Assembly: GCA_030710605.1 (NCBI GenBank)
Contig: CP092863.1
Span: 121,632,203-121,696,202 of the forward strand
From: Cordylochernes scorpioides
Lineage: Eukaryota > Arthropoda > Arachnida > Pseudoscorpiones > Chernetidae
Direction of reading: 5' to 3'
DNA: 64,000 nt
In this document: piece after piece, positions 2,581-51,779 of the stretch
Layout: every line of letters starts with the position of its first letter
How positions within the stretch are numbered: the first letter of the stretch is position 1
Translations under genes and position numbers: made by a program
Notes under the pieces: generated by a model
Told to the model about the DNA's origin: nothing
Seen by the model: only the letters and a program-made list of their open reading frames with translations
Database searches by the model: none

Positions 2581-2870
2581 CCCTAGTACACGTGGTACAG
2601 GCCATGATAATCATGGTGGGTAGTTAGCAACTGCTTTTACTGTAAGCGCACCACATGTCTACACATGTGAAAAGCAGTTCGACTTTGCACTTACAAATGT
2701 GCCAGAGCCCCTGTTTGGTTACTTGCACTCGCTGGTGGGGTAGGACTTTTGCAAGAATCGGGGGCCATTGGAGCATTTTATTTTATCAGAAAAAGTGTCC
2801 AATGCGGGAATCGAACCCGGGTCGTAGTGGTCGAAAACCAAACGGTTTAAACAGCCTTCCACCGACCCCC
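2581..2870 (-). repeat. tRNA-derived SINE
   Basis: Read on the minus strand, a tRNA-like head with a clear B box (GGGTTCGATTCCCGC) is followed by a T-rich linker. A conserved body follows (CCAACCCCACCAG, then AACGGGGCTCTGGCAC) and a tail ending GTACTAGGGATAA. The same architecture occurs at 4420, 14280, 20186, 23474, 26849 and 28660. It encodes no protein; such elements depend on LINE machinery. Confidence 0.8.
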
Positions 2871-2934
2871 ATTAAATATAGTTAATATGCAAAGTAGATT
2901 GAAACAGAAGGATAAAATAAGAAAGAAAAAAAAA

Positions 2935-3125
2935 GGCATTTCCTCATCGTTTACTGAAAGTTACATCGGAATAAATATCAACTATTCGTTGATTTTTTTT
3001 TTTTAATTATTCCAGAATTGGCCAAATACTAGTCGTTGAGGTACAGCCTGCACCACGCTGACGAGGGCCAACAGCCCGAAACGCGTACGTGGTTAGCTTT
3101 TCTTTATTAATCAATAATGGGTAAA
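2935..3125 (+). repeat. Rearranged ribozyme element unit (left arm)
   Basis: The first part (2935-3029) matches the start of the 338-bp unit found at 12983-13660. From about 3030 the sequence continues with the ribozyme segment of the same unit in inverted orientation. The junction lies in the ccaaatac/tcgttgag region. Inverted halves of this kind recall the complex ends of Penelope-like elements. The mirror copy is around 28400-28600. Confidence 0.7.
3044..3097 (+). ncRNA. Hammerhead ribozyme motif 1
   Basis: CTGACGA (3058-3064; the fifth core base is free in hammerheads) is followed by the stem II hairpin GGGC-CAACA-GCCC, then GAAA, then the palindrome ACGCGT. Cleavage is predicted after GUA. 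CCACG before the core pairs with CGTGG after the cleavage site to form stem I. All catalytic-core bases are kept. Stem III is only one or two base pairs in the monomer, so cleavage as a dimer is more likely. Confidence 0.8.
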
Positions 3126-3452
3126 TAAGCTAAAGAGATTTGAATTAAATTCTTTAAAAAGAAAATTATTCCTGGAAACTTAGTGATTTTTCATTTAAAC
3201 ATGTTTCTATTATAAAAAAAATAAATACATATATATATCAAATGCAACTAGAGAATTAGTGAAAAGTATATCTAATTTTTATCGAACGCACACACAAAAA
3301 AAAAGGGACATCTTGGTACAATTCAATTACAATTTCATATATATATATAAAATAAATTACTATAAAAAAATAGAGAGAAAAAAAGAAGGTTAAAAAAAAA
3401 GTCATTATCTAGTTATGCAAATCACGGCATGTCTTATTAAGGCGCGGAGAGA

Positions 3453-3531
3453 GGGGGGCGGTATAATTATTTTGTGGGGGGGTTGGGGGGGATTAGGTTG
3501 TCCTGTGGGGTTGTCGTGTCGGGGTGGCAGC
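3453..3531 (+). other. G-rich tract, possible G-quadruplex
   Basis: Runs of 4-8 G occur at 3453-3458, 3475-3482, 3485-3491, 3507-3510 and 3521-3524, all on the plus strand, in an otherwise AT-rich neighbourhood. The mirror copy is C-rich at about 28005-28078. No gene is seen. Confidence 0.55.
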
Positions 3532-4130
3532 GGAAAATTGGGAGCAGGCCACACTGTCATCGGGGGTGACACCGTGAAATCCTGTTGTCAGCATGAGGCT
3601 TCTTCATAAGTGATTTGGACTTTTATCCCCAAAACAACGCCATTGATTCGATAAAACCTCTAAATTCCTTCTTTTTTTATAACCTTTTCCTACCGACCAG
3701 ATAGCCTACGTGTGATTATGAGATTTTCCTCAGTACCTATTTCATACGTTAACGTGTGATCTTTGATCCAATATGCATTCTTTTAGTTTATTCTGAAATG
3801 ATTTTTTCGATGCTCTGTTGTATATATATAACATTCAATTTATTCATCGAGTGCGCATGCCTCGGCGCGCGGGTCGCGAGGAACTCTTGTATGTTTTGTT
3901 TTGGTAAATGAATGTGCTTAGCATTTCTATCAGATTTTGATATTTAGATTCATAAATAAAATATTTCATCTTATCGATAAATTTAATTTGTCTAATTAAT
4001 TACCTTACAATATTTTATGTTTAATTCATTTATTGTTCCCACAGAGTATTTGTTTGTAAGATCATAAGAAAATAGGCGCTAACTGTAAGAGATAAACAAG
4101 TTTCTTCCTCAAAAAAATAAAAATAAAAAA

Positions 4131-4412
4131 GGGCATCTACTTATCGGGAAACAAAGTTGATGATGGCTTGCGCCATCTATCGGAATAAATATAAACTATT
4201 CTCGTTGATTTTTAATTATTCCAGAATTGACCAAATACCCATTCTTGATTAATCAAGAAAAGCTAACTACATACGCGTTTCGGGCTGTTGGCTCTCATCA
4301 GCGTGGTGCAAGCTGTACCTCAACGACCAAAAAACTGGTAATTCAGACATCCTGAAAAATCATGAAACGGGTAGTTAAGGCCAGAATTGCGTGAGAACGC
4401 GACACAATGTGA
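4131..4412 (+). repeat. Ribozyme element unit (left arm, second copy)
   Basis: This matches the 338-bp unit of 12983-13660 through its leading part, ribozyme segment and trailing part ending near ACACAATGTGAAAAAT. It then abuts the SINE at 4420. It is a single copy, not tandem. The mirror copy is at 27130-27410. Confidence 0.75.
4261..4314 (-). ncRNA. Hammerhead ribozyme motif 2 (decayed)
   Basis: On the minus strand CTGATGA and GAAA are intact. Stem II has one mismatch (GAGC against GCCC), and the stem I strand after the cleavage site is altered (TGTAG instead of CGTGG). Same family as motif 1; probably inactive or weak. Confidence 0.65.
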
Positions 4413-4419
4413 AAAATAT

Positions 4420-4692
4420 GATGGTCGAAAACCGTTAGTTTTTGACCGCTATGACCCGGGATCGAATCCCGCATTGGGCACTTTTTTTCTAATTAAAAAT
4501 AAAAATCCAACCTTGCAAAATTCTAATTCCACCAACAAGTGAAAGTAACCAAACGGGGCTCTGCCACATTTTGTAAGTGCAAACTTCAAACTGCTTTTCA
4601 CATGAGTAGACATGTGGTGCACTTACAGTAAAAGAAATCGCCAACTTCTACCCACTATGATTATCATGGCCTGTACCACGTGTACTAGGGAT
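4420..4692 (+). repeat. tRNA-derived SINE
   Basis: The head has B box GGGATCGAATCCCGC at 4457-4471. The body and tail blocks are as in the SINE at 23474, ending GTACTAGGGATAA. It lies directly downstream of a ribozyme element unit. The mirror copy is at 26849-27120. Confidence 0.78.
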
Positions 4693-4714
4693 AATTTTTT
4701 TAAATTTTATTTTT

Positions 4715-4786
4715 CTCGACCTTTCGACAAAAGTCTTTTTGTCCTCATCAAGAACAAATAAAAAATATTTTGGTCCAAACGTCGAG
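4715..4786 (-). ncRNA. Penelope-type hammerhead-like motif
   Basis: On the minus strand CTCGACGTTT begins the segment and GAAAGGTCGAG ends it. These two ends pair (CTCGAC with GTCGAG) as an open stem III. Between them are TTGATGA, one base off the CUGANGA core, and a strong stem II hairpin (GACAAAA with TTTTGTC). This is the layout of type III hammerheads described in Penelope-like retroelements. The first core base is C to T, so activity is doubtful. Confidence 0.55.
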
Positions 4787-5550
4787 ATAATAATAAAAAA
4801 AAAAAAAAAAACATTCACTGACTGAAATGTCTTTTAATTCTAAGAACAATGAATACCGGCCAGGCAGCCTCTATCTTCAAAAAATTACAAATGGTTTTCA
4901 AAGAAATACAACCATTTTAAGCACGTTTTTTAAATAAAACAAATATCTACTGTCCTTATGGCCATGGAAAAATATTGGGAGAGTTTGGTTCATCAACGGT
5001 GAGCTCTCCTAGCGGTTTCGGCAGTTAATTCTATCAGATTTTTCTACTATCAGAAAAAAAATCAACAACTAAACCTAATGACTCAAGTATATCCTCAAAT
5101 TACATACAGAGATATCCGAGTATCATAGATATATTTCTACAATAAATTTGCATATACAACGATGTTATTCCTATAACATATTTGCATATAGTATATAACA
5201 TAGGGTTTAACAATGAATATGTTTCATAGACCGCGACTCTATTGATTTTTAGGCCTAGGAATGATGCTCTGTGTCATTTGTCTTTTTTACCATTTATCTT
5301 TTTTCCGCCCTTTTTTTTCGATATTTCTCTCTTTCGGCCATTTGTCTTGATTTCCGCGCCTATTCTCTCCCAACAACTCTCGTAATGGGATTACTTGGCC
5401 ACCTGGCGGCTTATGCAATTAAATATATGTAAATAGGTTGGATGTGTTATTAAATAAATATCTTCCCTTATATATTATATATTAGAGGTTTTTATGTTCT
5501 TAGGATTTGGGGGAGAAAAATCGAAGATTTGATATTGAAAGGGACAAGAT

Positions 5551-6350
5551 GATGTTGTTGTTGTTGTGTCAAATGAAGAGCCTCAGATGTCTCCATACAT
5601 CTCTATCACAGCAATGTTCTCTATCTTGGGTGTGTATACTGTATTGTTGTTGTTGTCGTGTCCAATGAAGAGCCTCAGATGTCTCCGTACATCTCTCTCA
5701 CAGCAATGTTCTCTATTCTGGGTGTGTATACTGTATTGTTGTTGTTGTCGTGTCCAATGAAGAGCCTCAGATGTCTCCATACATCTCTATCACAGCAATG
5801 TTCTCTATCTTGGGTGTGTATACTGTATTGTTGTTGTTGTTGTGGCCAATGAAGAGCCTCAGATGTCTCCATACATCTCTATCACAGCAATGTTCTCTAT
5901 CTTGGGTGTGTATACTGTATTTTTGTTGTTGTTGTGGCCAATGAAGAGCCTCAGATGTCTCCATACATCTCTATCACAGCAATGTTCTCTATCTTGGGTG
6001 TGTATACTGTATTGTTGTTGTTGTCGTGTCCAATGAAGAGCCTCAGATGTCTCCATACATCTCTATCACAGCAATGTTCTCTATCTTGGGTGTGTATACT
6101 GTATTGTTGTTGTTGTCGTGTCCAATGAAGAGCCTCAGATGTCTCCATACATCTCTATCACAGCAATGTTCTCTATCTTGGGTGTGTATACTGTATTGTT
6201 GTTGCTGTCGTGTCTAATGAAGAGCCTCAGATGTCTCCATACATCTCTATCACAACAATGTCCTCTATCTTGGGTGTGTATACTGTATTTTTGTTATTGT
6301 GGTGTCCAATGAAGAGCCTCAGATGTCTCCATGCATCTCTATCAGCTGCT
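5551..6350 (+). repeat. 92-bp minisatellite, about 8.5 copies
   Basis: A 92-bp unit containing TGAAGAGCCTCAGATGTCTC and GGGTGTGTATACTGTAT repeats in tandem with few substitutions. The right arm has only about one unit (25930-25990), which accounts for most of the 640-bp length difference between arms. The unit is not a multiple of three, so its 64-residue open frames are by-products and not genes. Confidence 0.92.
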
Positions 6351-7633: not shown

Positions 7634-9079
7634 AAAAAGTTCAGTATGTTTATTGAAATTTCACAAGAACGACTGGATATTTCTTTAGTCACAATATAAT
7701 AATGGCCATGATAGTTTTTTTAAAATAGTGTTTGCTTTATTCTCTCGCTGATTGGTTCTCCCTGATTATCCTATATATTTTATGTTAAAAATACATAATT
7801 TTAGTATTTTTAGGTTTAGATATAATCGAATTTACTCACCACATGTGTAAATAAGTTTAATATTTTGTGTGTAGGTTTAGATATAATGGAATTTATCCAT
7901 CACATGTGTAAATAAGTTTGATGTTTTTGTGGTTTATATATGATCGAATTTATCCCTCACATATATGTAAATAAGTTTGGTATTTTGTGGTTTATATATG
8001 ATCGAATTTATCCCTCACATATATGTAAATAAGTTTGGTATTTTGTGGTTTATATATGATCGAATTTATCCCTCACATATATGTAAATAAGTTTGGTTTT
8101 TTGGTCAATATACACATAGGTATAATCAAAATTATTTATATAAAATGAATCATTGGTGTTGATAATTTCAAAACAACGAAATATTTAAGCCATATCTATA
8201 ATATTTTTTATCCAAGAATTTATAAAACCAACATACATGAAACAAATAAAATATTCTGTTAAAAAACACACACCGAGCTTATATTCAAACCGAGACATTG
8301 AGAAGACAACAAAAAAAAAGTGGAAATTTTGAGAAAAAGCCATTAGGTGTTCGCATCCTTTTGATAGGTGGTGTGAAGAAGAATAAAAAAAAGTTTCGAC
8401 CTATAAGTCTTGTAGGAAAAAGGCTAAAAAATGACAAAGAGTGGCTGTTTTAAGGACAGGTTATAACAATATATAACAATATAGTTGGGAAATACTTGAT
8501 ACCAACCAACGATTCGATTGCATCCTTTTTTTAAGCCTATTTCTTTATTTTTTACATCCTTCCAAATGTTTTTTTTTTATATACAAGAAAATCTCTTTAT
8601 TACAATTCCTTTTTTTTTTAAATATTCGCTTCTTAATATTCTTTTAAACGGCATATTTCTCTTTTATTTAAAAAAAGAAGAAGAATATTAAAAGAGTTTT
8701 ATACTTTTGGTAAAAAAAAAGTTTTCTACATTTTTTTTTTTGATTTTTTTTTAAAAATGTTATCTCTACAATTATAATAATTTTTTTTTTTTCATATTTT
8801 TTTAAGAAGTTTTTTTTTTTCATTCGAATAAAACGACTGAAGAGGTTTTTTTTTACATTTGAATATAAAAATCTGTTGGATTTCGAAAAAACAAAAGGGT
8901 ATATGTAAATAAGTTTTTTGGTTTGATATATGTAATTAAAAAAATTTAAAGATCATTTGTGGGTTGGTAGTTTGTTTGGAGAAATATTTGTCAACATCAA
9001 ACATTTATTTATTTTGTTCCCGATGTTTCAGGAACTCGCTGTTAAATCCTCTATGAAGAGCCACATACAAATACCCAAT
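7634..9079. other. AT-rich spacer without gene
   Basis: Apart from the 58-bp repeat (7812-8105), this stretch is made of poly-T and poly-A rich sequence, densest at 8520-8870. I see no coding region or recognisable element. Confidence 0.7.
7812..8105 (+). repeat. 58-bp tandem repeat, about 5 copies
   Basis: GATCGAATTTATCCCTCAC recurs at 7942, 8000 and 8058, giving a period of 58. Two more diverged copies precede it. Each unit holds TATGTAAATAAGTTTGG. Confidence 0.85.
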
Positions 9080-10101
9080 ATACACTCATGGACAAAACTT
9101 AAGGAAGTTGTACCTTTCAGCATGTATATCGGGATTAAGACAATAACTCTGAAATATATTACAGTGACCTTTATTGAAGACACACGAGATAACCAATATA
9201 CACTCATGGACAAAACTTAAGGAAGTTGTACCTTTCAGCATGTATATCGGGATTGAGACAATAACTCTGAAATATATTACAGTGACCTTTATTGAAGACA
9301 CACGAGATAACCAATATACACTCATGGACAAAACTTAAGGAAGTTGTACCTTTCAGCATGTATATCGGGATTGAGACAATAACTCTGAAAGATATTACAG
9401 TGACCTTTATTGAAGACACACGAGATAACCAATATACACTCATGGACAAAACTTAAGTAAGTTGTACCTTTCAGCATGTATATCGGGATTGAGACAATAA
9501 CTCTGAAAGATATTACAGTGACCTTTATTGAAGACACACGAGATAACCAATATACACTCATGGACAAAACTTAAGGAAGTTGTACCTTTCAGCATGTATA
9601 TCGGGATTGAGACAATAACTCTGAAAGATATTACAGTGACCTTTATTGAAGACACACGAGATAACCAATATACACTCATGGACAAAACTTAAGGAAGTTG
9701 TACCTTTCAGCATGTATATTGGGATTGAGACAATAACTCTAAAAGATATTACAGTGACCTTTATTGAAGACATACGAGATAACCAATATACACTCATGGA
9801 CAAAACTTAAGGAAGTTGTACCTTTCAGCATGTATATCGGGATTGAGACAATAACTCTGAAAGATATTACAGTGACCTTTATTGAAGACATACGAGATAA
9901 CCAATATACACTCATGGACAAAACTTAAGGAAGTTGTACCTTTCAGCATGTATATCGGGATTATAACTCTGAAAGTTATTACAGTGACCTTTATTGAAGA
10001 AACACGAGATAACCAAGTGTAAAAAACCTCTGTTTCCTTAAAATAAAATAAAATAAACAGACGACCGGCAACATCAAAGACTTAATTTTTCCATGAGTGT
10101 A
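9080..10101 (+). mobile_element. Tc1-type MITE with amplified 118-bp core (array 1)
   Basis: About eight 118-bp units, each starting TACACTCATGGACAAAAC, run in tandem. After the last unit comes unique sequence (about 10017-10080), then CCATGAGTGTA at 10091-10101, the inverted form of the unit start. The array therefore sits inside an element with inverted ends TACACTCATGG. The units encode no protein; the period is not divisible by three. Confidence 0.8.
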
Positions 10102-12855: not shown

Positions 12856-13112
12856 TTTTAACATTTCACACTTTTAAATATCTGAAAATAGGAAAATCCC
12901 TTCTCGAGAAGCCATAAAAAGGAATACCCTTTTATAAAATCATAAATAAGTTACCTTATACATATACATACATTAAAAAAAGGCATCTCCTTATCGTGCA
13001 ACTGAAAGTTGCTGATGGCTGGCGCCATCTATCGGAATAAATATCAACTATTCTCGTTGATTTTTAATTATTCCAGAATTGGCCAAATACCCATTCTCGA
13101 TTAATCAAGAAA

Positions 13113-13166
13113 AGCTAACCACGGACGCGTTTCGGGCTGTTGGCCCTCATCAGCGTGGTGCAAGCT
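13113..13166 (-). ncRNA. Hammerhead ribozyme motif 3 (intact)
   Basis: On the minus strand: AGCT-TGCA-CCACG, core CTGATGA, stem II GGGC-CAACA-GCCC, GAAA, then ACGCGT, cleavage after GTC, and CGTGG-TT-AGCT. Stem I pairs CCACG with CGTGG, then an internal loop, then AGCT with AGCT. Predicted cleavage is between 13124 and 13123. Stem III is the self-complementary ACGCGU, which suits dimeric cleavage. Confidence 0.88.
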
Positions 13167-13450
13167 GTACCTCAACGACCAAAAAATTGGTCATTAAGGC
13201 ATCCTGAAAAATCATGAAACGGGTAGTTAAGGCCAGAATTGCGTGAGGACGCTACACAATGTGAAAAAATAGTACAAATGTAACATTGTACTGGGATAAG
13301 GGGCATAAATTAAGAAAAAGGCATCTCCTTATCGTGCAACTGAAAGTTGCTGATGGCTGGCGCCATCTATCGGAATAAATATAAACTATTCTCGTTGATT
13401 TTTAATTATTCCAGAATTGGCCAAATACCCATTCTCGATTAATCAAGAAA

Positions 13451-13504
13451 AGCTAACCACGGACGCGTTTCGGGCTGTTGGCCCTCATCAGCGTGGTGCA
13501 AGCT
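13451..13504 (-). ncRNA. Hammerhead ribozyme motif 4 (intact)
   Basis: Identical in all ribozyme parts to the motif at 13113-13166. The two predicted cleavage sites are exactly 338 nt apart, so a minus-strand transcript would release a 338-nt monomer. Confidence 0.88.
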
Positions 13505-13788
13505 GTACCTCAACGACCAAAAAATTGGTCATTAAGGCATCCTGAAAAATCATGAAACGGGTAGTTAAGGCCAGAATTGCGTGAGGACGCTACACAATGT
13601 GAAAAAAATAGTACAAATGTAACATTGTACTGGGATAAGGTGCATAAATTAAGAAAAAGGCATCTCCTTATCGTGCAACTGAAAGTTGCTGATGGCTGGC
13701 GCCATCTATCGGAATAAATATCAACTATTCTCGTTGATTTTTAATTATTCCAGAATTGGCCAAATACCCATTCTTCATATACATACAT

Positions 13789-14653: not shown

Positions 14654-17629
14654 TACACTCATGGAAAATTCTTAAGGAAGTTTTACCTTTTAGTATTCAT
14701 ATCGTATAAAGGTCACTGTAATATCTTTCAGAGTTATTGTCTCAATCCCGATATACATGCTGAAAGGTACAACTTCCTTAAGTTTTGTCCATGAGTGTAT
14801 ATTGGTTATCTCGTGTGTTTTCAATAAAGGTCACTGTAATATCTTTCAGAGTTATTGTCTCAATCCCAATATACATGCTGTTAGGTACAACTTCCTTAAG
14901 TTTTGTCCATGAGTGTATATTGGTTATCTCGTGTGTTTTCAATAAAGGTCACTGTAATATCTTTCAGAGTTATTGTCTCAATCCCAATATACATGCTGAA
15001 AGGTACAACTTCCTTAAGTTTTGTCCATGAGTGTATATTGGTTATCTCGTGTGTCTTCAATAAAGGTCACTGTAATATCTTTCAGAGTTATTGTCTCAAT
15101 CCCGATACACATGCTGAAAGGTACAACTTCCTTAAGTTTTGTCCATGAGTGTATATTGGTTATCTCGTGTGCCTTCAATAAAGGTCACTGTAATATCTTT
15201 CAGAGTTATTGTCTCAATCCCGATATATATGCTGAAAGGTACAACTTCCTTAAGTTTTGTCCATGAGTGTATATTGGTTATCTCGTGTGTCTTCAATAAA
15301 GGTCACTGTAATATCTTTCAGAGTTATTGTTCAATCCCGATATACATGCTGAAAGGTACAACTTCCTTAAGTTTTGTCCATGAGTGTATATTGGTTATCT
15401 CGTGTGTCTTCAATAAAGGTCACTGTAATATATTTTAGAGTTATTGTCTCAATCCCGATATAAATGCTGAAAGGTACAACTTCCTTAAGTTTTGTCCATG
15501 AGTGTATATTGGTTTCTCGTGTGTCTTCAATAAAGGTCACTGTAATATCTTTCAGAGTTATTGTCTCAATCCCGATATACATGCTGAAAGGTACAACTTC
15601 CTTAAGTTTTGTCCATGAGTGTATATTGGTTATCTAGTGTGTTTTCAACAAAGGTCACTGTAATATCTTTAAGAGTTATTGTCTCAATCCCGATATACAT
15701 GCTAAAAGGTATAACTTCCTTAAGTTTTGTCCATGAGTGTATATTGGTTATCTCGTGTGTCTTCAATAAAGGTCACTGTAATATCTTTCAGAGTTATTGT
15801 CTGAATCCCGATATGCATGATAAAAGGTACAACTTTCTTAAGTTTTGTCCATGAGTGTATATTGGTTATCTCGTGTATCTTCAATAAAGGTCACTGTAAT
15901 ATCTTTCAGAGTTATTGTCTCAATCCCGATATGCATGCTGAAAGGTACAACTTCCTTAGGTTTTGTCTCCATGAGTGTATATTGGTTATCTTGTGTGTCT
16001 TCAATAAAGGTCACTGTAATATATTTCAGAGTTATTATCTCAATCCCGATATACATGCTAAAAGGTACAACTTCCTTAAGTTTTGTCCATGAGTGTATAT
16101 TGGTTATCTCGTGTGTCTTCAATAAAGGTCACTGTAATATCTTTCAGAGTTATTGTCTCAATCCCGATATACATGCTAAAAGGTACAACTCGTTAAGTTT
16201 TGTCCATGAGTGTATATTGGTTATCTCGTGTGTCTTCAATAAAGGTCACTGTAATATCTTTCAGAGATTTTGTCTCAATCCCGATATACATGCTAAAAGG
16301 TACAACTTCCTTAAGTTTTGTCCATGAGTGTATATTGGTTATCTCGTATGTCTTCAATAAAGGTCACTGATATATATTTCAGAGTTAGTGTCTCAATCCC
16401 GATATACATGCTGAAAGGTACAACTTCCTTAAGTTTTGTCCATGAGTGTATATTGGTTATCTCGTATGTCTTCAATAAAGGTCACTGTAATATATTTCAG
16501 AGATATTGTCTCAATCCCGATATACATGCTGAAAGGTACAACTTCCTTAAGTTTTGTCCATGAGTGTATATTGGTTATCTCGTGTGTCGTCAATAAAGTT
16601 CACTGTAATATATTTCAGAGTTATTATCTCAATCCCGATATACATGCTAAAAGGTACAACTTCCTTAAGTTTTGTCCATGAGTGTATATTGGTTATCTCG
16701 TGTGTCTTCAATAAAGGTCACTGTAATATCTTTCAGAGTTATTGTCTCAATCCCGATATACATGCTGAAAGGTACAACTTCCTTAAATTTTGTCTATGAG
16801 TGTATATTGGTTATCTCGTATGTCTTCAATAAAGGTCACTGTAATATATTTCAGAGTTATTGTCTCAATCCCGATATACATGCTGAAAGGTATAACTTCC
16901 TTAAGTTTTGTCCATGGGTGTATATTGGTTATATCGTATGTCTTCAATAAAGGTCACTGTAATATCTTTCAGAGTTATTGTCTCAATCCCGATATACATG
17001 CTGAAATGAAAAACTTCCTAAGTTTTGTCCATGAGTGTATATTGGTTATCTCGTATGTCTTCAATAAAGGTCACTGTAATATCTTTCAGAGTTATTGTCT
17101 CAATCCCGATATACATGCTGAAAGGTACAACTTCCTTAAGTTTTGTACATGAGTGTATATTGGTTATCTCGTGTGTCTTCAATAAAGGTCACTGTAATAT
17201 CTTTCAGAGTTATTGTCTCAATCCCGATATACATGCTGAAAGGTACAACTTCCTTAAGTTTTGGCCATGAGTGTATATTGGTTATCTCGTGTGTCTTCAA
17301 TAAAGTTCACTGTAATATATTTCAGAGTTATTGTCAAAATCCCGATATACATGCTGAAAGGTACAACTTCCTTAAGTTTTGTCCATGAGTGTATATTGGT
17401 TATCTCGTGTGTCTTCAATAAAGGTCACTGTAATATATTTCAGAGTTATTGTCTCAATCCCGATATACATGCTGAAAGGTACAACTTCCTTAAGTTTTGT
17501 CCATGAGTGTATATTGGTTATCTCGTGTGTCTTCAATAAAGGTCACTGTAATATATTTCAGAGTTATTGTCTCAATCCCGATATACATGCTGAAAGGTAC
17601 AACTTCCTTAAGTTTTGTCCATGAGTGTA
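14654..17629 (-). mobile_element. Tc1-type MITE with amplified 118-bp core (array 2)
   Basis: About 25 tandem 118-bp units lie in the opposite orientation to the array at 9080. The array starts with TACACTCATGGAAAATTCTT at 14654 and ends with CCATGAGTGTA at 17629, so it has inverted ends like the other members. Several units carry small deletions. Open frames of about 81 residues recur because the unit has few stops; the composition and frame shift per unit argue against coding. Confidence 0.85.
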
Positions 17630-17639
17630 ATATTCCCTC

Positions 17640-18640
17640 CCATCAACGAATACAGTTGAGCAGCAAAGTAGTTTGAACCAATATACTAAATATTGTGTCT
17701 TAGATCATACGTAAGCGTATTATAAAATCCTGAGGAAAAGTTCATAATCACATATATTGTCATCGTGAAGAAAAAAAAAAAGAAAATTAAGTATGCAGTA
17801 AAGTTCACATAAATATATATTTTTAATCCTGAAAGAGACTAAAATATTTTGTCTAAATCTCTATAACTTATATTTACTGAAATGTTCTCTTCCTCACGAA
17901 ATATGAAAGTGTTAGTTTGTTTATGCAACACAAAAAGATATATGTAAATAAGTTCAATCTAATAAAGTGGCATATATGTATATATAAAATATATATATGT
18001 GTATGTAATAACCTTTTTAGTACATGAGAAAGATTTTATAAAGTATTTTATAATGTTAAAAAATAACGTTAAAAAAACTAATGTATATTAAAGAAAAGTA
18101 ACAATTTATCAAGAAGCCATTATAGGCAGGAGTTGCATATCGACCTGTGGCAGCGCCATTTTTCACGTCAGAATATGCAAATCTCGGATTATATCCTTCA
18201 TTATCCGGGATATCGGAGAAATGCCAACTCCAGATGCTTGCTCCTCCAGAAATACTCACAATTAACAAAGCCAATTAACTCAATTAGTACAAGGAGTAAT
18301 TATCATAAGATTAAACCTATTCGACTTTTTTTTTTCTTTTTTTTTTGTACAAATCTGTTTGTTTGTTTTTTGTGCTTGCCAAGTTGTATGGCGTCGATTT
18401 CTCTGAAGACTTTTTTTTTTCGGTATTTTCTGACTAGACGAGTGGAACATAGAGATTTTCATTTTGAAAATACATTTTCTAATATTTAGAAATCAACGCG
18501 ATCATAAACTTTGAATTACCTTTATAAGGGTATATTAGAACCGTCGCTAAACGAGCCGGGATTATAACTCAATAGTTTCGCTCTATTATCACATTTCCCT
18601 TAGTGGCTAGAAGTCTTAAATTATCGTAAAGATTGAGGCT
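17640..18640. other. Unassigned AT-rich region
   Basis: I see no supportable gene. An open frame at 18133-18489 spans poly-T tracts and lacks any recognisable motif. One ATGCAAAT octamer lies at 18175-18182. Confidence 0.5.
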
Positions 18641-18790
18641 GCCTGGCCGGCATTCATAGTTTTTAAATTTAAAGATACTTCGGCCAGTAAATCTTTTTAT
18701 TGCCTCGACGTTTCTACAGAAATCTTTTATCCTCGTCAAGAGCAAATTAATACGACGAGGACAAAATATATTTGTCGAAAGGCCGAGAGA
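18640..18790 (+). repeat. Penelope-like fragment
   Basis: GAGGCTGCCTGGCCGG followed by the CTCGACGTTT...GAAAGGCCGAG block repeats the arrangement found at 4715-4870 in the left arm and 26650-26820 in the right arm. This is therefore a third dispersed copy of that family. Confidence 0.6.
18704..18787 (+). ncRNA. Penelope-type hammerhead-like motif (decayed)
   Basis: CTCGAC (18704) and GGCCGAG (18781-18787) can pair as open stem III. Stem II pairs GACAAA with TTTGTC, and GAAA is present. The core reads ACGACGA instead of CTGANGA, so it is probably inactive. Confidence 0.45.
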
Positions 18791-20929: not shown

Positions 20930-21366
20930 CACATGGACAAAACTTAAGGAAGTTGTACCTTTTACCATTTATATCGGGATTGAGACAATAACTCTGAAAG
21001 ATATTAGTGACCTTTATTGAAGACACACGAGATAAACAATATACACTCATGGACAAAACTTAAGTAAGTTGTACCTTTCAGCATGTATATCGAGATTCAG
21101 ACAATAACTCTGAAATATATTAGTGATCTTTATTGAAGACACACGAGATAACCAATATACACTCATGGACAAAACTTAAGGAAGTTGTACCTTTCAGCAT
21201 GTATATCAGGATTGAGACAATAACTCTGAAAGATATTACAGTGACCTTTATTGAAGACACACGAGATAACCAAGTGTGAACAGCCTCTGTCTCCTTCAAA
21301 ACATAAAAATAAACGACCGAAGCTATCAAACACTTTCTACTTTCTTAAGTGTTGTCCATGAGTGTA
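20930..21366 (+). mobile_element. Tc1-type MITE, short form of the 118-bp family
   Basis: About three 118-bp units, then the unique right part (with AAACGACCGAAG) and an inverted end GTCCATGAGTGTA. This shows the basic element from which the longer arrays arose. The SINE tail at 21367 follows directly. Confidence 0.75.
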
Positions 21367-21765: not shown

Positions 21766-21926
21766 TAGACGCCATCTATTTACCGTCGCCGCAAACTAGC
21801 AGACTCGGATCGGTGACAAAGCCACAACACCAGCTTTGGTAAACTGAGAAGTGTGTGTCTATTGATGTGGCTTTATGACCGACCCGAGTCCTCTAGTTTG
21901 CGGTGGCGGTCAATAGATGGCGTCTA
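21766..21926. mobile_element. Fold-back MITE
   Basis: TAGACGCCATCTATTTACCG at the left is mirrored by CAATAGATGGCGTCTA at the right, with arms of about 65 bp that include ACTAGCAGACTCGG and CGAGTCCTCTAGT. The right end runs straight into the next 118-bp array, sharing the TA. Confidence 0.8.
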
Positions 21927-23100
21927 CACTCATGGACAAAACTTAAGGAAGTTGTACCTTTCAGCATGTATATCGGGATTGAGACAATAACTCTGAAAGA
22001 TATTACAGTGACCTTTATTGAAGACACACGAGATAACCAATATACACTCATGGACAAAACTTAAGGAAGTTGTACCTTTCAGCATGTATATCGGGATTGA
22101 GACAATAACTCTGAAAGATATTACAGTGACCTTTATTGAAGACACACGAGATAACCAATATACACTCATGGACAAACCTTAAGGAAGTTGTACCTTTCAA
22201 CATGTATATCGGGATTGAGACAATAACTCTGAAAGATATTACAGTGACCTTTATTGAAGACACACGAGATAACCAATATACACTCATGGACAAAACTTAA
22301 GGAAGTTGTACCTTTCAGCATGTATATCGGGATTGAGACAATAACTCTGAAATATATTACAGTGATCTTTATTGAAGACACACGAGATAACCAATATACA
22401 CTCATGGACAAAACTTAAGGAAGTTGTACCTTTCAGCATGTATATCGGGATTGAGACAATAACTCTGAAATATATTACAGTGATCTTTATTGAAGACACA
22501 CGAGATAACCAATATACACTCATGGACAAAACTTAAGGAAGTTGTACCTTTCAGCATGTATATCGGGATTGAGACAATAACTCTGAAAGATATTACAGTG
22601 ATCTTTATTGAAGACACACGAGATAACCAATATACACTCATGGACAAAACTTAAGGAAGTTGTACCTTTCAGCATGTATATCGGGATTGAGACAATAACT
22701 CTGAAAGATATTACAGTGATCTTTATTGAAGACACACGAGATAACCAATATACACTCATGGACAAAACTTAAGGAAGTTGTACCTTTCAGCATGTATATC
22801 GGGATTGAGACAATAACTCTGAAAGATATTACAGTGATCTTTATTGAAGACACACGAGATAACCAATATACACTCATGGACAAAACTTAAGGAAGTTGTA
22901 CCTTTCAGCATGTATATCGGGATTGAGACAATAACTCTGAAAGATATTACAGTGATCTTTATTGAAGACACACGAGATAACCAATATACACTCATGGACA
23001 AAACTTAAGGAAGTTGTACCTTTCAGCATGTATATCGGGATTGAGACAATAACTCTGAAAGATATTACAGTGATCTTTATTGAAGACACACGATATAACA
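21924..23100 (+). repeat. 118-bp minisatellite (array 3)
   Basis: Ten near-identical units begin TACACTCATGGACAAAAC. Units from about 22350 on share GTGATCTTT in place of GTGACCTTT, showing recent block amplification. The right inverted end seen in the other members is missing. Confidence 0.9.
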
Positions 23101-25784: not shown

Positions 25785-25990
25785 GGGGAGAAATCCGACC
25801 ACACCTCCTTGCGGTCCTCCCTGGACCCTTGGAATATTTGACCAAATTCTGGTCCAAGGTGACTAACGTGGCAACGGCAACCATTTTCCAATGAAGAGCA
25901 ACACCCAAGATAGTGGACATTACTGCTGCTGAGAGCAGCTGATAGAGATGTATGGAGACATCTGAGGCTCTTCATTGGACACGACAACAA
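25785..25990 (-). repeat. Transposase-leader repeat plus one 92-bp unit
   Basis: Mirror copy of 6331-6532, preceded by a long G-run (about 25771-25788). It carries only about one 92-bp unit (to 25990), so it probably shows the state before the left-arm expansion. Confidence 0.7.
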
Positions 25991-26747
25991 TAACATCATC
26001 TTGTCTCTTTCAATATCAAATATTCGATTTTTCTCCCCCAAATCCTAAGAACATAAAAAACTCCAATATATAAGAATGGATATTTATTTCTATAACACAT
26101 CCAACCTATTTACATATATTTAATTGCATAAGCCGCCAGGTGGCCAAGTAATCCCATTACGAGAGTTGTTGGGAGAGAATAGGCGCGGAAATCAAGACAA
26201 ATGGCCGAAAGAGAGAAATATCGAAAAAAAGGGCGGAAAAAAGATAAATGGTAAAAAAGACAAATGACACAGAGCATCATTCCTAGGCCTAAAAATCAAT
26301 AGAGTCGCGGTCTATGAAACATATTCATTGTTAAACCCTATGTTATATACTATATGCAAATATGTTATAGGAATAACATCATTGTATATGCAAATTTATT
26401 GTAGAAATATATCTATGATACTCGGATATCTCTGTATGTAATTTGAGGATATACTTGAGTCATTAAGTTTAGTTGTTGATTTTTTTCTGTTAGTAGAAAA
26501 ATCTGATAGAATTAACTGCCGAAACCGCTAGGAGAGCTCACCGTTGATGAACCAAACTCTCCCAATATTTTTCCTTGGCCATAAGGACAGTAGATATTTG
26601 TTTTATTTAAAAAAGTGCTTAAAATGGTTGTATTTCTTTGAAAACCATTTGTAATTTTTGAAGATAGAGGCTGCCTGGCCGGTATTCATTGTTCTTAGAA
26701 TTAAAAGACATTTCAGTCAGTGAATGTTTTTTTTTTATTATTATTAT

Positions 26748-26819
26748 CTCGACGTTTGGACCAAAATCTTTTTTATTTGTTCTTAATGAGGACAAAAAGA
26801 CTTTTGTCGAAAGGTCGAG
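26748..26819 (+). ncRNA. Penelope-type hammerhead-like motif (right arm, decayed)
   Basis: Mirror copy of 4715-4786. The core reads TTAATGA, which loses the G of the CUGANGA core, so it should be inactive. Confidence 0.45.
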
Positions 26820-26848
26820 AAAAAATAAAATTTAAAAAAATTATCCCT

Positions 26849-27120
26849 AGTACACGTGGTACAGGCCATGATAATCATAGTGGGTAGAAGTTGGCGATTG
26901 CTTTTACTGTAAGTGCACCACATGTCTACTCATATGAAAAGCAGTTTGAAGTTTGCATTTACAAATGTTTCAGAGCCCCGTTTGGTTACTTTCATTTGCT
27001 GGTGGGGTTAGACTTTTGCAAGGTTGGATTTTATTTTATTTTTAATTAGAAAAAAGTGCCCAATGCGGGATTCGATCCGGGGTCATAGCGGTCAAAAACT
27101 AACGGTTTTCGACCATCATA
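26849..27120 (-). repeat. tRNA-derived SINE (right arm)
   Basis: Mirror copy of the SINE at 4420-4692, with the tail at the low-coordinate end and the tRNA-like head near 27055-27115. Confidence 0.75.
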
Positions 27121-27129
27121 TTTTTCACA

Positions 27130-27410
27130 TTGTGTCGCGTTCTCACGCAATTCTGTCCTTAACTACCCGTTTCATGGTTTTTCAGGATGTCTGAATGACC
27201 AGTTTTTTGGTCGTTGAGTTACAGCTTGCACCACGCTGACGAGGGCCAACAGCCCGAAACGTGTACGTGGTTAGCTTATCTTGATTAATTAAGAATGATT
27301 ATTTGGCCAATTCTGGAATAATTAAAAATCAACGAATAGTTTATATTTATTCCGATAGATGGCGCAAGCCATCATCAACTTTGTTTCCCGATAAGTAGAT
27401 GCCCTTTTTC
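27130..27410 (-). repeat. Ribozyme element unit (right arm)
   Basis: Mirror copy of 4131-4412. It contains ATTGTGTCGCGTTCTCACGC, the ribozyme segment, then AATTAAAAATCAACGAATAG and GATAGATGGCGCAAGCC. Confidence 0.72.
27223..27276 (+). ncRNA. Hammerhead ribozyme motif 5
   Basis: CCACG-CTGACGA-GGGC-CAACA-GCCC-GAAA, then ACGTGT, A at the cleavage site, and CGTGG. Core, stem I and stem II are intact, unlike its left-arm partner at 4261. The stem III palindrome is ACGTGT, slightly altered. Confidence 0.78.
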
Positions 27411-28432
27411 ATTTTTTTTTTAAAGAAGAAACTTGTTTATCTCTTACAGTTAGCGCCTATTTTCTTATGATCTTACAAACAAATACTCTGTGGGAACAAT
27501 AAATGAATTAAACATAAAATATTGTAAGGTAATTAATTAGACAAATTAAATTTATCGATAAGATAAAATATTTTATTTATGAATCTAAATATCAAAATCT
27601 GATAGAAATGCTAAGCACATTCATTTACCAAAACAAAACATACAAGAGTTCCTCGCGACCCGCGCGCCGAGGCATGCGCACTCGATGAATAAATTGAATG
27701 TTATATATATACAACAGAGCATCGAAAAAATCATTTCAGAATAAACTAAAAGAATGCATATTGGATCAAAGATCACACGTTAACGTATGAAATAGGTACT
27801 GAGGAAAATCTCATAATCACACGTAGGCTATCTGGTCGGTAGGAAAAGGTTATAAAAAAAGAAGGAATTTAGAGGTTTTATCGAATCAATGGCGTTGTGT
27901 TGGGGATAAAAGTCCAAATCACTTATGAAGAAGCCTCATGCTGACAACAGGATTTCACGGTGTCACCCCCGATGACAGTGTGGCCTGCTCCCAATTTTCC
28001 GCTGCCACCCCGACACGACAACCCCACAGGACAACCTAATCCCCCCCAACCCCCCACAAAATAATTATACCGCCCCCCTCTCTCCGCGCCTTAATAAGAC
28101 ATGCCGTGATTTGCATAACTAGATAATGACTTTTTTTTTAACTTTTTTTTTCTCTCTCTATTTTTTTTATAGTAATTTCTTTTTATATATATATATGAAA
28201 TTGTAATTGAATTGTACCAAGATGTCCTTTTTTTGTGTGTGTGCATTCGATAAAAATTAGATATACTTTTTCACTAATTCTCTAGTTGCATTTGATATAT
28301 ATGTATTTAATTTTTTTATAATAGAAACATGTTTAAATGAAAAATCACTAAGTTTCCAGGAATAATTTTCTTTTTAAAGAATTTAATTCAAATCTCTTTA
28401 GCTTATTTACCCATTATTGATTAATAAAGAAA

Positions 28433-28486
28433 AGCTAACCACGTACGCGTTTCGGGCTGTTGGCCCTCTTCAGCGTGGTGCAAGCT
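28433..28486 (-). ncRNA. Hammerhead ribozyme motif 6
   Basis: On the minus strand CCACG-CTGAAGA-GGGC-CAACA-GCCC-GAAA-CGCGTA-CGTGG. The fifth core base is A, which the hammerhead consensus allows. It is the partner of the motif at 3044-3097, which has C at that place. Confidence 0.78.
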
Positions 28487-28659
28487 GTACCTCAACGCCT
28501 AGTATTTGGCCAATTCTGGAATAATTTTTTTTTTTTAAATCAACGAGTAGTTGGTATTTATTCCGATGTAACTTTCAGTTGAACGATAAGGAAATGCCTT
28601 TTTTTTCTTTCTTATTTTATCCTTCTGTTTCAATCTACTTTGCATATTAACTATATTTA

Positions 28660-29038
28660 ATGGGGGTCGGTGGAAGGCTGTTTAAACCGTTTGGTTTTCG
28701 ACCACTACGACCCGGGTTCGATTCCCGCATTGGACACTTTTTTCTGATTAAAACTTTTTAATATATATTTTTTTATTATATTATTATATATTTTTTTATT
28801 ATATTATATTATATTATATTATTAATTTTTTTCTTATTTAAAATTGCTTCAATGGCCCCCGATTCTTGCAAAAGTCCAACCCCACCAGCGAGTGCAAGTA
28901 ACCAAACGGGGCTCTGGCACATTTGTAAGTGCAAAGTCGAACTGCTTTTCACATGTGTAGACATGTGGTGCGCTTACAGTAAAAGCAGTTGCTAACTACC
29001 CACCATGATTATCATGGCCTGTATCACGTGTACTAGGG
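28660..29038 (+). repeat. tRNA-derived SINE with AT-rich insert (right arm)
   Basis: It has an intact head with GGGTTCGATTCCCGC (28713-28727), an enlarged (TATTA)n linker at about 28760-28835, then the normal body and tail. The left-arm copy (2581-2870) lacks the insert. Confidence 0.8.
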
Positions 29039-32700: not shown

Positions 32701-33858
32701 ATGGAGCCGAACCAGTATGATGGTGGTGGTGGTGGAGGAGGTCAGCAGACCAACAAAAAGCGGCCGCGTCCTGAGGACGAAGACCTCCTCCCGTCTTCCC
32801 ACAATCAATTCAAGTTCAACAGCACAGCAAGCTTGTTCAACTTTGGGTGCCGGACTTTCGAGGCGATCATTGCGGACACTAGCTTGGACACCCCCGAAAA
32901 AATGCAGATGGCCACCAGAGGACTGATGCTGACTCTCGTCCAAGAGGCAGAACTTCTTCTTGAGGACGCCTTCAAGGGAGCCAGTCTAGGAAGACCCAAT
33001 CCCACAGCCAACATCCCGATCCCCTCCACCTCATTCGCCTCGGTAGTGGCTGAGAAAGAGAAGCCGGTAAGGCCTGCACTTCCGAAGCCCAAAGTGAAAG
33101 CCACATTTGTGAATCTGGCTCCTTCCTTTGAATCGCATGTCGTCGTCAAGTCGGCTGACCCCAAATCCAACCCTAGGGAAATATTAAGGGAAATTCAAAA
33201 GATTCATCCTTCACTAGCGTCATCAAAAGACGTGGTGGCGTCCATAAACACCAACGGCAAGGTTGTTTTCCACACCAAAACGACCCAAATGGCAAAGTCG
33301 CTGGCCTCGGGGCTGACCTCCCTGCCAACGGGTCTAAGCTGCCACGAGCGCCCGGTTATCCTACCGAGATACTGCCTCTTCAGAGTGGACGGGGAGGTGC
33401 GGGACGAGGAGATTTGCGAGAGCCTCCGCTCCAACCACACCGTGCAGTCACTCCAGGGAAAACGTGACATCAAGGTAGTCCATCGATCGAAGAATGCGGC
33501 ACACAACACCAGTACAGTGTTCATCGAAGTGGACATCCAAGTCGCCGAAATCCTCGGTCAACATGGACGTATCCCTGTGGCAGGTCTAATGCACAGGTAT
33601 GAGCGCAGTCATACTTTAAAACAATGCTTCCGTTGCTGTGGCTTCGGCCACCGCGCGTCTGCCTGTCCAGCTGCCCATCCAATCTGTTATCGCTGCGGCT
33701 CTGCAGAGCATGAGGGCTTCCAATGCTCGGTCGAGCCAAGCCAAAGCCGCTGCTGCCGCTCCAGCAAAAAGTCTGGAGCTCCCATCAACCACTTTGCCAC
33801 CTCACCTTCCTGTCCCTTTGTAAAAGAGAGAATAGCCCGAACAAGAAACAATGTCTAG
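32701..33858 (+). CDS. LINE ORF1 protein (Gag-like, zinc knuckles)
   Basis: A 385-residue nucleic-acid-binding protein that should coat the LINE RNA. The N-terminus is rich in Gly and charged residues (a poly-Gly run at residues 8-14, then KKRPRPEDED). The middle part (about 150-290) is folded-looking and ends in the zinc-knuckle block. CFRCCGFGHRASAC (about residues 313-326) and CYRCGSAEHEGFQC (about 334-347) are two CX2CX4HX4C knuckles, typical of I/R1/Jockey-group ORF1. The ATG at 32701 is the first in frame. The stop overlaps the ORF2 start by 8 bases. No breaks seen. Confidence 0.88.
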   Translation: MEPNQYDGGGGGGGQQTNKKRPRPEDEDLLPSSHNQFKFNSTASLFNFGCRTFEAIIADTSLDTPEKMQMATRGLMLTLVQEAELLLEDAFKGASLGRPNPTANIPIPSTSFASVVAEKEKPVRPALPKPKVKATFVNLAPSFESHVVVKSADPKSNPREILREIQKIHPSLASSKDVVASINTNGKVVFHTKTTQMAKSLASGLTSLPTGLSCHERPVILPRYCLFRVDGEVRDEEICESLRSNHTVQSLQGKRDIKVVHRSKNAAHNTSTVFIEVDIQVAEILGQHGRIPVAGLMHRYERSHTLKQCFRCCGFGHRASACPAAHPICYRCGSAEHEGFQCSVEPSQSRCCRSSKKSGAPINHFATSPSCPFVKERIARTRNNV

Positions 33859-36800
33859 GCCATTGCGTGTCCTGCAGGTGAACGCTAGAAAATCACCAAC
33901 TGCCATTCTTGAAATTGCAAATTTGGCAAATTCGACACAGGCCGACATCGTGCTCCTGCAAGAACTCCCAACTAACTTCTTCTGGCCCACACCTGGGTTT
34001 CAAGCATTTTTTGTCCCTGGCGCCTACATCCCCTCGGGAATAGTGGCACGTAGCAACCTTCATCCCATCCCTCTAACCTCCCCAGACACCGCCATAACCT
34101 CCATAGCCATATGTCTAGAGCAGAGTATCATCGCGGTGTACTCGGCCTACTGGCACGGCCTTAGAGCTGCCGAGGATTTCATCCCTCTTCTGGAAGATAC
34201 AATAAGACGGGCCTCTCTTCCAGTAATCCTGGGTATGGACACTAACGCCCACTCTCCTACCTGGGGTATAGGTGCGAGGTTGGACTTCCGGGGTGCTAAT
34301 CTGGAAGAATTCGCCAGCTTCAATGATCTTCATTTCTTGGGACCCCCTGTGATCTCTACCTGGTCAAATGGGTCCTTGTCTTCTTCTATAGATGTCACTC
34401 TGGCCTCCAGCTCTATGGCTATCCATGCCACTAGGGGTTTATTAGGTGAGATGGCCTTCACTGACCATATACCTATCTGGACTACATTCCTAGACATGGT
34501 CAATAACGAGACGAACTCCTCCTGGGTTGAATCCTCATGTAAAGAACAGACCTTTAAATCCTTCCTAAACTCTTCTCTCTACCAGGTAACTGCCCAATTG
34601 AACGAGGCCTCTACCCCAGAAGATATTGACAGGGTGGTCGTCCTTCTGACTTCCATCCTGCAATCAGCTTGTGACTCTTCCATGAGGAGACGCTCCAATA
34701 CTACAAGACCGTCAAAGCCGTGGTGGACCCCCGAACTGAGTCGGATCAGAAGGTTTGTTATCTCCCTCCGCCGTTGCAGTCAGAGTGTCCGGAGTCCTAT
34801 TAGGAACTTCTTCCGCGGTTTATACCGAGCGTGCCATAATCGACTGAAGGCGGCTATACGGAAAGCTAAAAGTAAATCCTGGTTTAATCTCTGCGAGGAG
34901 GTGTCACCCGCATCCTGGAGTGCCATACATCGATTTATCGCCCGGGGTCGCGGCTCCCCCAGAGGTCCGCCACTTCTCAAACATGATGACGGCTCTCCTT
35001 ACAATCCTCATGAGACTTGCCAGGCCGTGTTAAATCACTTTTTCCTACCTGACACCAGACCTCACCCGCAAAGGAATGTAATTTCTGCGCACTCAGACGA
35101 ACCTGAATTCAAACCCTGGGAAGTTTTGCGAGCCATTCATCGCTGTGGAAAAAGGAAAGCCCCGGGCCCCGACGGTCTTGGTTCGAAGTGCCTAGACCTG
35201 GGCGGCCCTTCCTTGCAATTCCTGCTGGCCGAATTGTTCACCAAATGCCTTCGTATGGGCCACTTCCCCCGTCCATGGAAAGAAGGCCGCCTCATACTTC
35301 TGCCTAAATCCTCCAATTCAGCCACCAGTCAGCTGGAGAAATACAGACCTATTACTTTATTGAACACTATGGCCAAAGTCTTCGAGAGATGTATCCTGGC
35401 CAGACTTCAGTGGCTCGCGGATCGTCACGGATGGTTCTTTGAAGATCAATACGGTTTTGTAAATGGTCGTTCTGCGGAAGATGCACTGGCAAGTATCACC
35501 CAATTCATTGAAGAAAGACAAGCTCACTGGAGGAAAACTCTTGTCATCAGCTTGGATATCAGTAAGGCCTTCGACACTGTTTGGAGGCCGGCAATTATTC
35601 AAAATCTTGAACGCCTAAATTGCCCAGAGTATATCACCGGCTTAGTAAAAAGCTTTTTGGAAGACCGGAGGGTCTCTTATTCAGCTTGGACAGCAACAGA
35701 GTGTACATCCTCCCAGCTCGGCACTCCCCAGGGTTCAGCGCTAAGTCCTTTCCTGTGGAACATAGTTGCTCGGACCATCTTCACCCTTCCCTCCATCAAA
35801 GATAGCCGATTAATAGCTTACGCGGACGACTTCACCCTTATGATTCAGGTTCGTGGTCGCCTGCCGGTCTCTGCCACCAACAACTTCTTGGAAAGGTTGA
35901 CATCTTGGTGCACGATGTGCGGTCTTAATATAAACCCCAGTAAGACTCAAGCTTGCCTGTTCCAATGGCGTAATGTTCACCCCAACTCCGAGACAGGGCT
36001 TAAAATCCTTGGTCAACCTTTAAACATCAAGAAGACAATCACAATCTTGGGAGTAGAATTGGACCAGACCCGCGGATTTGTCGCCCACCTATGCAAGATC
36101 ACACGTAGATGCAGATCAATAATCCCACGACTCACCAACTCCATAAAGGGTAAATTTGGAATCTCCTTTTCAGCTGGAACTAGGATTTTCGACGCGGTGG
36201 TGGTACCTGCCTTCCTTTACGGAGCGTCAGCATGGGGACGTCGTACTCTCTCCAGCGAAGGCATTAGGCAGCTTAGGAGCCTTCACTACAATTTTGCGAA
36301 ACGCGTACTGAGAGGAGGTCCTCGCACGCCAACAGTCTCAGCTATCTCCATCACTGGCAGCCCTCCTCTCGATATTATTGTTAGGTATCGTACGGCGTTC
36401 CTAAAGGAAATCAATGAAGGAAATTTTGAATCTAGACCAGGCCCTGGTTCTTTGCCATACCCTCCAGATAGACGTCAATTGTCTTTCAGTCAAAGCATCG
36501 AGGAGATAACAACACCCATAATATATACAGACGGATCAAAAAATGAGGCTGGGGTGGGCGCTGCAATTGTTCCCTCATCAGAAGATCAGCAGACCGTTCT
36601 CTTACGGCTCCATCCAGACTGCTCAGCCTTCCAGGCTGAACTTCTGGCAATACGCTGGGCGGTCCGTCTGGTGGAGGAAGGTTATTCTAGAGAGGAAATC
36701 ACTATCGCGTCGGACTGCAAATCAGCTCTGTCAGCCATATGTACGTCAGGTCCAGTTCGATCGACCTTAGTTGCTGAGATTGTTCTCGCACTGAACACCA

Positions 36801-51399: not shown

Positions 51400-51472
51400 G
51401 CTCTGCCATCTAAAAAGCACATGTGCTCCTGGTCAGGATATGCTTTCTTTATTTTTAATATATATATTAAGA
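51400..51472 (+). repeat. Half of a palindromic MITE
   Basis: ATGTGCTCCTGGTCAGGATA and a nearby TGCCATCT piece match the right half of the MITE at 59005-59194. Confidence 0.6.
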
Positions 51473-51779
51473 AAAAAGCATCTCCTTATCTTTCAACTGA
51501 AAGTTGCTGATGGCTTGCGCCATCTATCGGAAAAAATATCAACTATTCTCGTTGATTTTTAATTATTCCACAATTGGTCAAATACCCATTCTTGATTAAT
51601 CAAGAAAAGCTAACCACTATTTGGCCAATTCTAGAATAATTAAAAATCAACGAGAATAGTTGATATTTATTCCGATAGATGGCGCAAGCCATCAGCAACT
51701 TTCAGTTGCACGATAAGAAGATGCCTTTTTCTTAATTTATGCACCTTATCTCAGTACAATATCATATTTGTACTATTTT

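Follow-up and report, generated by a model that had tools for sequence, protein, structure and literature searches.

A pseudoscorpion hammerhead retrozyme whose insertions share the alternating ends of a resident Penelope-like element

A tandem retrozyme insertion

Tandem Repeats Finder reported a 338-bp period, with 2.4 copies and 98% matches, at positions 12967-13774 of the window, by which we mean the whole 64,000-nt stretch of Cordylochernes scorpioides DNA analysed here. The features of this locus, and of a second insertion of the same family, are as follows (RT, reverse transcription or reverse transcriptase; HHR, hammerhead ribozyme).

12974..13775, minus strand: retrozyme insertion, single orientation, 802 bp or 2.37 units of 338 nt
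12961..12973: left 13-bp target-site duplication CATATACATACAT, exact repeat
13776..13788: right 13-bp target-site duplication CATATACATACAT, exact repeat
12972..12984, minus strand: 3' junction with the target, U-tract GCCTTTTTTTAAT, the short RT-start site used here
13310..13322, minus strand: putative short RT-start site, internal copy (GCCTTTTTCTTAA), role assigned from end positions
13649-13661, minus strand: putative short RT-start site, second internal copy, role assigned from end positions
13264..13275, minus strand: putative long RT-start site (GTACTATTTTTT), role assigned from end positions
13603-13614, minus strand: putative long RT-start site, second copy, role assigned from end positions
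13119..13161, minus strand: HHR 1, type I, stem III palindrome ACGCGU, predicted cleavage between 13124 and 13123
13457..13499, minus strand: HHR 2, identical to HHR 1, predicted cleavage between 13462 and 13461
51462..51779: second insertion of the retrozyme family, head-to-head, beside a TA repeat; minus arm with a short-site end, plus arm with a long-site end

A prior reading of the sequence alone (hereafter the sequence-only reading) had described 2.35 tandem units between 13-bp repeats, and this description held, as CATATACATACAT stands on both sides of the 802-bp insert and, in a search of the plus strand, has exactly two occurrences in the window, one at each edge. We count unit positions from the nucleotide that follows the predicted cleavage site. 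On this numbering, the insertion has its 3' end at a short RT-start site and its 5' end at about position 27; the long RT-start site is not an end in this insertion. RNA of the 338-nt unit has a predicted fold of -110.9 kcal/mol (z -6.5), which none of 100 shuffles equalled.

Judged on those defining features that were open to testing, the 338-bp locus is an animal (metazoan) non-LTR retrozyme: its tandem unit falls within 150-450 bp, its GC content of 41% is below 45-50%, and it co-exists with Penelope-like elements (PLEs) that carry minimal HHRs. The class is already known and the element is a new member of it, in a pseudoscorpion.

Other repeats lie nearby. A different satellite of 53 bp (40 copies) stops about 110 bp before the retrozyme insertion, and a 116-118-bp satellite forms several separate arrays in both orientations (9071-10016, 14706-17634, 20932-21273, and 21925-23099), which are present on both sides of the insertion.

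Hammerhead ribozymes

Two identical minus-strand hammerheads spaced by 338 nt had been proposed at the outset, and we found the same: the cores at 13491 and 13153 are identical and the predicted cleavage sites, 13462/13461 and 13124/13123, are exactly 338 nt apart. Each ribozyme comprises stem I (CCACG/CGUGG), the core CUGAUGA, stem II (GGGC/GCCC, loop CAACA), GAAA, and a stem III, ACGCGU, that is its own complement. Both are matched by the Rfam model Hammerhead_HH9 with 26.5 bits (E 3.6e-4), which is below its curated cut-off of 52, and at the gathering threshold an Rfam search of the whole window listed a tRNA alone and no HHR. That tRNA gene is on the minus strand at 49720-49790 (54.5 bits). 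Among 111 units of the family, the HHR core is intact in 96 and the core plus stems in 88, and stem III with the cleavage base reads ACGCGUC in 86 of the 96 core-intact units.

The minimum-energy fold of a single HHR differs from the catalytic fold. Two HHRs co-folded give -39.0 kcal/mol versus 2 x -16.6 kcal/mol for separate molecules, so that the dimer is predicted to be the more stable form, and this co-fold energy weakly favours HHR dimers. We liken stem III to that of one axolotl retrozyme HHR, which has one base pair and a palindromic tetraloop and is described as cleaving poorly when monomeric and far better in dimeric constructs (PMC7229834). By analogy, the HHRs of the pseudoscorpion element probably cut in vivo, as dimers.

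Copies of the family in the genome

Searches of the genome (2.62 Gb, 24 contigs) returned at least 116 matches with the 338-nt unit as the query (best 40 of 598 candidates scored) and at least 166 with an older copy as the query (best 40 of 6653 candidates scored), and many near-identical copies are dispersed over the genome. Recurrent alignment ends at 289-338 and 1-48 were considered as element ends and rejected, since the fetched loci identified them as the flank limits of the search. We read 30 loci from the 338-nt-unit search, two of which are the window's own, and 20 further loci, a sample that is biased towards long, well-matching copies. Copies with both flanks present and a best arm of at least 90% identity numbered 49. 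L018 (equal to L017) and L027 (equal to L013) had been dropped as duplicates by eye, from their flanks, and outside the 49 are copies cut by the edge of a stretch (L009, L063, L074, L080, the first copies of L019 and L078, and the second of L072).

Further stretches of the family in the window are at 2965-3123, 4120-4416, 27121-27408, 28408-28606, and 51462-51779, the first four of which contain an HHR-like core. The regions 2781-5633 and 25901-28752 are mutual inverted copies (95.6% identity), and in each of them a pair of oppositely oriented, HHR-bearing retrozyme pieces is separated by about 1.24 kb. Positions 4417-4480, which adjoin the 5' end of the piece at 4120-4416, hold tRNA-like sequence (GGATCGAATCCC) and then a T run; judged by eye, this is possibly a SINE-like or chimeric unit.

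Insertion ends, orientation, and target sites

Twenty-eight of the 49 copies are head-to-head, with their 3' ends outermost, and 19 are in a single orientation, so that insertions like 12974..13775 are a minority of the sample. The remaining two entries, tail-to-tail, are trivial: L004 is a 24-nt match and L024 an older neighbouring copy. The outer 3' ends (n = 75) fall mostly at two places in the unit, 39 at positions 145-160 (short ends) and 26 at 195-206 (long ends), with 10 elsewhere; thus 65 of 75 ends lie in two intervals that cover 28 of the 338 unit positions. The two sites are about 46 nt apart and far from the cleavage site, and the intervals sit directly after the U-runs GCCUUUUUCUUAA and GUACUAUUUUUUCA. 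They were drawn after viewing L003-L030, and among the loci fetched later (L061-L080) 23 of 27 ends are within them.

The two classes of ends alternate. Where both ends of a head-to-head copy are in the intervals (n = 23), 20 copies have one of each class, two have two short ends, and one has two long ends (binomial p 2.4e-4 for 20 of 23); in the later loci L061-L080, the proportion is nine of nine. L006, one of the three pairs that break the rule, was read by eye as an adjacent older copy, and the edge-cut copies of L072 and L019 have, also by eye, one short and one long end. Two duplicates were kept in these counts, the copies at window 28408 and 27121, which are inverted copies of those at 2965 and 4120; without them there are 47 copies, 27 head-to-head, with 63 of 72 ends in the intervals, 20 of 23 pairs with one of each, and 22 of 47 with duplications. 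This insertion pattern of fixed alternating ends is what is new about the element.

Exact flanking repeats of at least 11 bp accompany 22 of the 49 copies (and are absent in 27) as compared with 81 of 2352 swapped-flank controls, and this excess, along with the presence of near-identical copies genome-wide, places the locus beyond chance. The flanks are 78% A+T, versus 64% for the window. Two diverged paralogues represent empty sites, for L066 and L007; each lacks the insert, spans the junction, and has the target once (L015:1931-2221 at 86% identity; window 49324-49510 at 83%). The number of joined flanks tried in finding these was not counted, and the other matches were the locus itself or AT-rich repeats.

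These data also bear on whether the repeats are satellite DNA, spread by unequal exchange or by re-integration of excised DNA circles, with the HHRs as passengers. Such processes could account for a 10.2-kb cluster, C3:52070988-52081214, with about 25 units on one strand, and may lie behind its growth, but the dispersed copies, which are short and have target duplications, fixed ends, and, in two cases, empty sites, speak against them. For the dispersed copies we consider the satellite explanation largely refuted, and as an account of the family it is extremely improbable. The C3 cluster itself, in which the minus-strand units are followed by a plus-strand copy, contains two stretches of about 0.95 kb without listed matches and is far longer than the loci read.

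The RNA template

Both ends are inside the locus for 80 arms, of which 69 cross the cleavage junction and three have their 5' end at it; the template was therefore a circle or an uncut multimer, not a cleaved linear monomer. The proposal that the locus arose by retroposition of circular or concatemeric 338-nt RNA is thus supported by the arms running through the junction as well as by the target duplications, the dispersed copies, and the two empty sites. Its further element, an origin by reverse transcription of the ribozyme RNA, stands as regards retroposition and needs refinement as regards the starting point, which is internal, ~150 nt downstream of the cleaved end.

That both 3' end sites come after runs of five or six Ts would fit a different template, a linear RNA polymerase III transcript for which these T5 and T6 runs are the terminators. 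However, many ends are several bases beyond the T run (...TTTTTCTTA, ...TTTTTTCA), the arms, the longest of which is 1508 nt, traverse both T runs repeatedly, and a protein-coding PLE of the host has the same two-class ends. We consider a polymerase III template very unlikely.

Over all copies, the mean identity of units is 97.5% within an arm, 97.6% across opposite arms, and 95.0% across insertions. Among young insertions, the agreement of units in L066 is 99.7% within the same arm and 99.7% with the opposite arm; the corresponding values are 99.7% and 99.9% in L078 and 100% and 99.7% in L062, as against a mean of about 96% to other insertions. In 23 of 28 insertions, the opposite arms are on average more alike than they are to other insertions, and this does not hold for the remaining five (L003, L005, L011, L016, and L067). 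As a counterpoint, the best single unit of another insertion is 100% identical over at least 100 nt to L066, L078, and L062. A shared template for each insertion is favoured by these values, without proof, and a circle is therefore favoured over the transcript of a mixed array. We infer that the template of the retrozyme is a circle.

The 5' ends of the arms are scattered, with an excess at unit positions 27-46 (16 of 80) and 142-145 (6 of 80). The latter pile-up lies immediately upstream of the short RT-start site, as though the polymerase halted when it came back to its start.

A resident Penelope-like element with the same end pattern

PLEs are abundant in the host genome. A search of it for the GIY-YIG domain gave at least 146 matches (150 of 17015 candidates scored). 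Eleven close inverted pairs picked from the matches listed are all minus-then-plus, with their 3' ends outward, and we read ten of these places, each of which proved to be an inverted repeat with 93.9-100% identity between its arms. These 10-kb loci were chosen for their inverted GIY-YIG pairs and hence are uninformative on how frequent such pairs are; two of them (L056 and L057) gave no ends. The host PLE encodes RT (RVT_1) and GIY-YIG domains, and the protein at L055:3009-5339 (minus strand) has 97% identity, over 64% of its length, to a Cordylochernes scorpioides protein.

With the 3' end of the main PLE family (258 positions) as the query, the PLE 3' ends at >85% identity (n = 27) have a bimodal distribution, with 13 falling at positions 209-228 and 14 at 252-258. 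Head-to-head PLE pairs were picked by eye from the tabulated ends. Thirteen of the 14 combine a short end with a long end, about 35 nt apart, and the remaining pair (L051:6900-7132, 75-79% identity) has a second end that is unreadable; L060 carries an additional plus arm, which likewise has a long end. A minimal HHR (CUGACGA...GAAACGUC), missed by a strict HHR scan and found by a looser one, lies upstream of the short ends and terminates at a distance of about 35-54 nt from them. Short fragments of the PLE 3' end occur in the window at 4705-4764 (minus) with 4802-4877 (plus), which form a tiny head-to-head pair, and at 18623-18750 (minus) and 26661-26829.

The common end pattern on the retrozyme and the host PLE leads us to conclude that PLE enzymes very probably mobilise the retrozyme, and this PLE or a close relative presumably acts on it. 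The two elements are distinct. RT and endonuclease are encoded by the PLE and neither by the retrozyme; no ORF of at least 130 aa in the ORF list of the window overlaps the retrozyme insertion, and the retrozyme is therefore not a PLE, only inserted like one. Stem III is ACGCGU in the retrozyme versus ACGU in the PLE, and the start sites are about 46 nt apart versus about 35. BLAST found no sequence common to the two; the BLAST matches of the unit in PLE loci were rejected as shared sequence, being older retrozyme copies outside the PLE inserts, with the exception of an 18-nt match (E 0.29) in L058. The likeness of their HHR cores and U-rich ends was read by eye. The short site of the retrozyme is in the loop of a predicted stem, GAUAAGG/CCUUAUC, and the PLE has a stem, CUGGCCG/CGGCCAG, in the L052 fold that is absent from the minimum-energy fold of L055, so the likeness of stems is a hint only.

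Mobilisation by a LINE, SINE-like, from the 3' end of a linear RNA has in its favour that LINEs are present in the window (e.g., two ORFs at 32701-37351) and that the target duplications are compatible with target-primed reverse transcription by LINEs. Against it, no poly-A tail was seen by eye in the listed insertion junctions, and the two alternating 3' ends of head-to-head copies match the host PLE instead; two alternative 3' ends, one per side, are not, to our knowledge, a LINE trait. We regard LINE mobilisation as unlikely. As to the LINE itself, its first ORF (385 aa) had no Pfam match and its second (1166 aa) has endonuclease, RT, and RNase H domains.

Proposed mechanism

The best explanation, to which we assign a probability of about 0.86, is that a non-autonomous 338-nt retrozyme is inserted by PLE machinery acting on circular or multimeric RNA. 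A genomic retrozyme copy would be transcribed, and the HHRs, probably paired as dimers via the ACGCGU palindrome, would release unit-length pieces of the RNA for a host ligase to circularise, by analogy with the systems in PMC7229834. The resident PLE protein would then bind the two start sites, both U-rich, that lie about 150 and about 200 nt downstream of cleavage, and would make a cut in each strand of AT-rich DNA with a stagger that is commonly 11-15 bp, after which each cut end would prime reverse transcription, one at the short site and one at the long site. This step is based on the end footprint from our analysis and on the two-site chemistry published for a lizard PLE. Finally, two cDNAs would circle the template, often for more than one round, and join head-to-head; alternatively, a single cDNA would give a single-orientation tandem, as at 12974..13775.

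The chemistry is that of the purified Anolis PLE, in which reverse transcription begins at two internal sites next to each other and AT-rich DNA is cut on both strands, each of which is extended; the stretch between the two RT starts is the 30-40 bp genomic 'tail' termed unique to PLEs (PMC11167929). In the same in vitro system HHR activity was dispensable for insertion, and no difference in start site was seen for the top versus the bottom strand, so that report does not explain the one-of-each rule. Self-priming has been proposed for the inverted copies of PLEs (PMC3846280). We rejected such snap-back priming as the main source of the head-to-head retrozyme copies because copying one cDNA cannot produce two different start ends.

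We raise tentatively the possibility that both head-to-head cDNAs are copied off one RNA circle by the two halves of a PLE protein dimer, which would begin at the two start sites and chase each other. The arm identities of 99.7-99.9% fit a single circle and are no proof of it, since two identical RNAs would look alike. If this is true, PLE-type retrotransposition would normally use ribozyme circles as its endless template, with animal retrozymes standing to PLEs as a circular counterpart of SINEs.

Significance and comparison with known systems

Animal retrozymes have been defined, and PLEs proposed as their mobilisers, because type I HHRs and tandem copies are common to both and the two are found together (PMC7229834). 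PLEs are likewise given as the likely mobilisers in a second 2020 paper, on the same grounds (PMC7761336), and in a 2022 guide (PMC8969392), and a 2024 review names LINEs or PLEs (PMC11722881). In these papers the mobilising enzyme is only proposed, and the PLE footprint turns the proposal into a specific, testable claim. Two defined RNA sites (~150 and ~200) are now available for in vitro work, and the read-out, two end classes with one per side, is applicable to any animal genome with retrozymes.

Like the pseudoscorpion element, the plant LTR retrozymes (PMC4918200) are non-autonomous and bear ribozymes, and they spread via circular RNA, as the former probably does. They differ in having type III HHRs, LTRs, circular RNAs of 600-800 nt, and target duplications of 4 bp (PMC7229834). 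The nearest known kind are the metazoan non-LTR retrozymes, especially axolotl Rtz_331/HHR_Amex1 and the satellite repeats of newts (PMC7229834). Common to these and to the element described here are type I HHRs, tandem copies, and low GC, with a unit of about 330 bp in axolotl versus 338 bp here, and target duplications of more than 4 bp are found both in metazoan retrozymes and here (13 bp). The host differs, and the elements are likened by their description, not by sequence. Head-to-head insertions with two alternating RT-start ends, present here, are not described in the part of PMC7229834 consulted, and a literature search of titles, abstract openings, and passages that mostly missed subscription journals found no report of a PLE tail on retrozyme insertions. 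Among 20 listed titles, out of 26 papers that name C. scorpioides, none is about ribozymes.

In these respects the retrozyme resembles the PLEs, as described for Anolis Poseidon (PMC11167929) and Adineta vaga Penelope (PMC3846280). In the latter, the tail is at one of two inverted pseudo-LTRs and head-to-head is the commonest inverted arrangement (PMC3846280). PLEs and the retrozyme alike have tandem and head-to-head copies, a 3' 'tail' on one of two inverted ends, AT-rich targets, an HHR upstream of the RT-start sites, and short target duplications.
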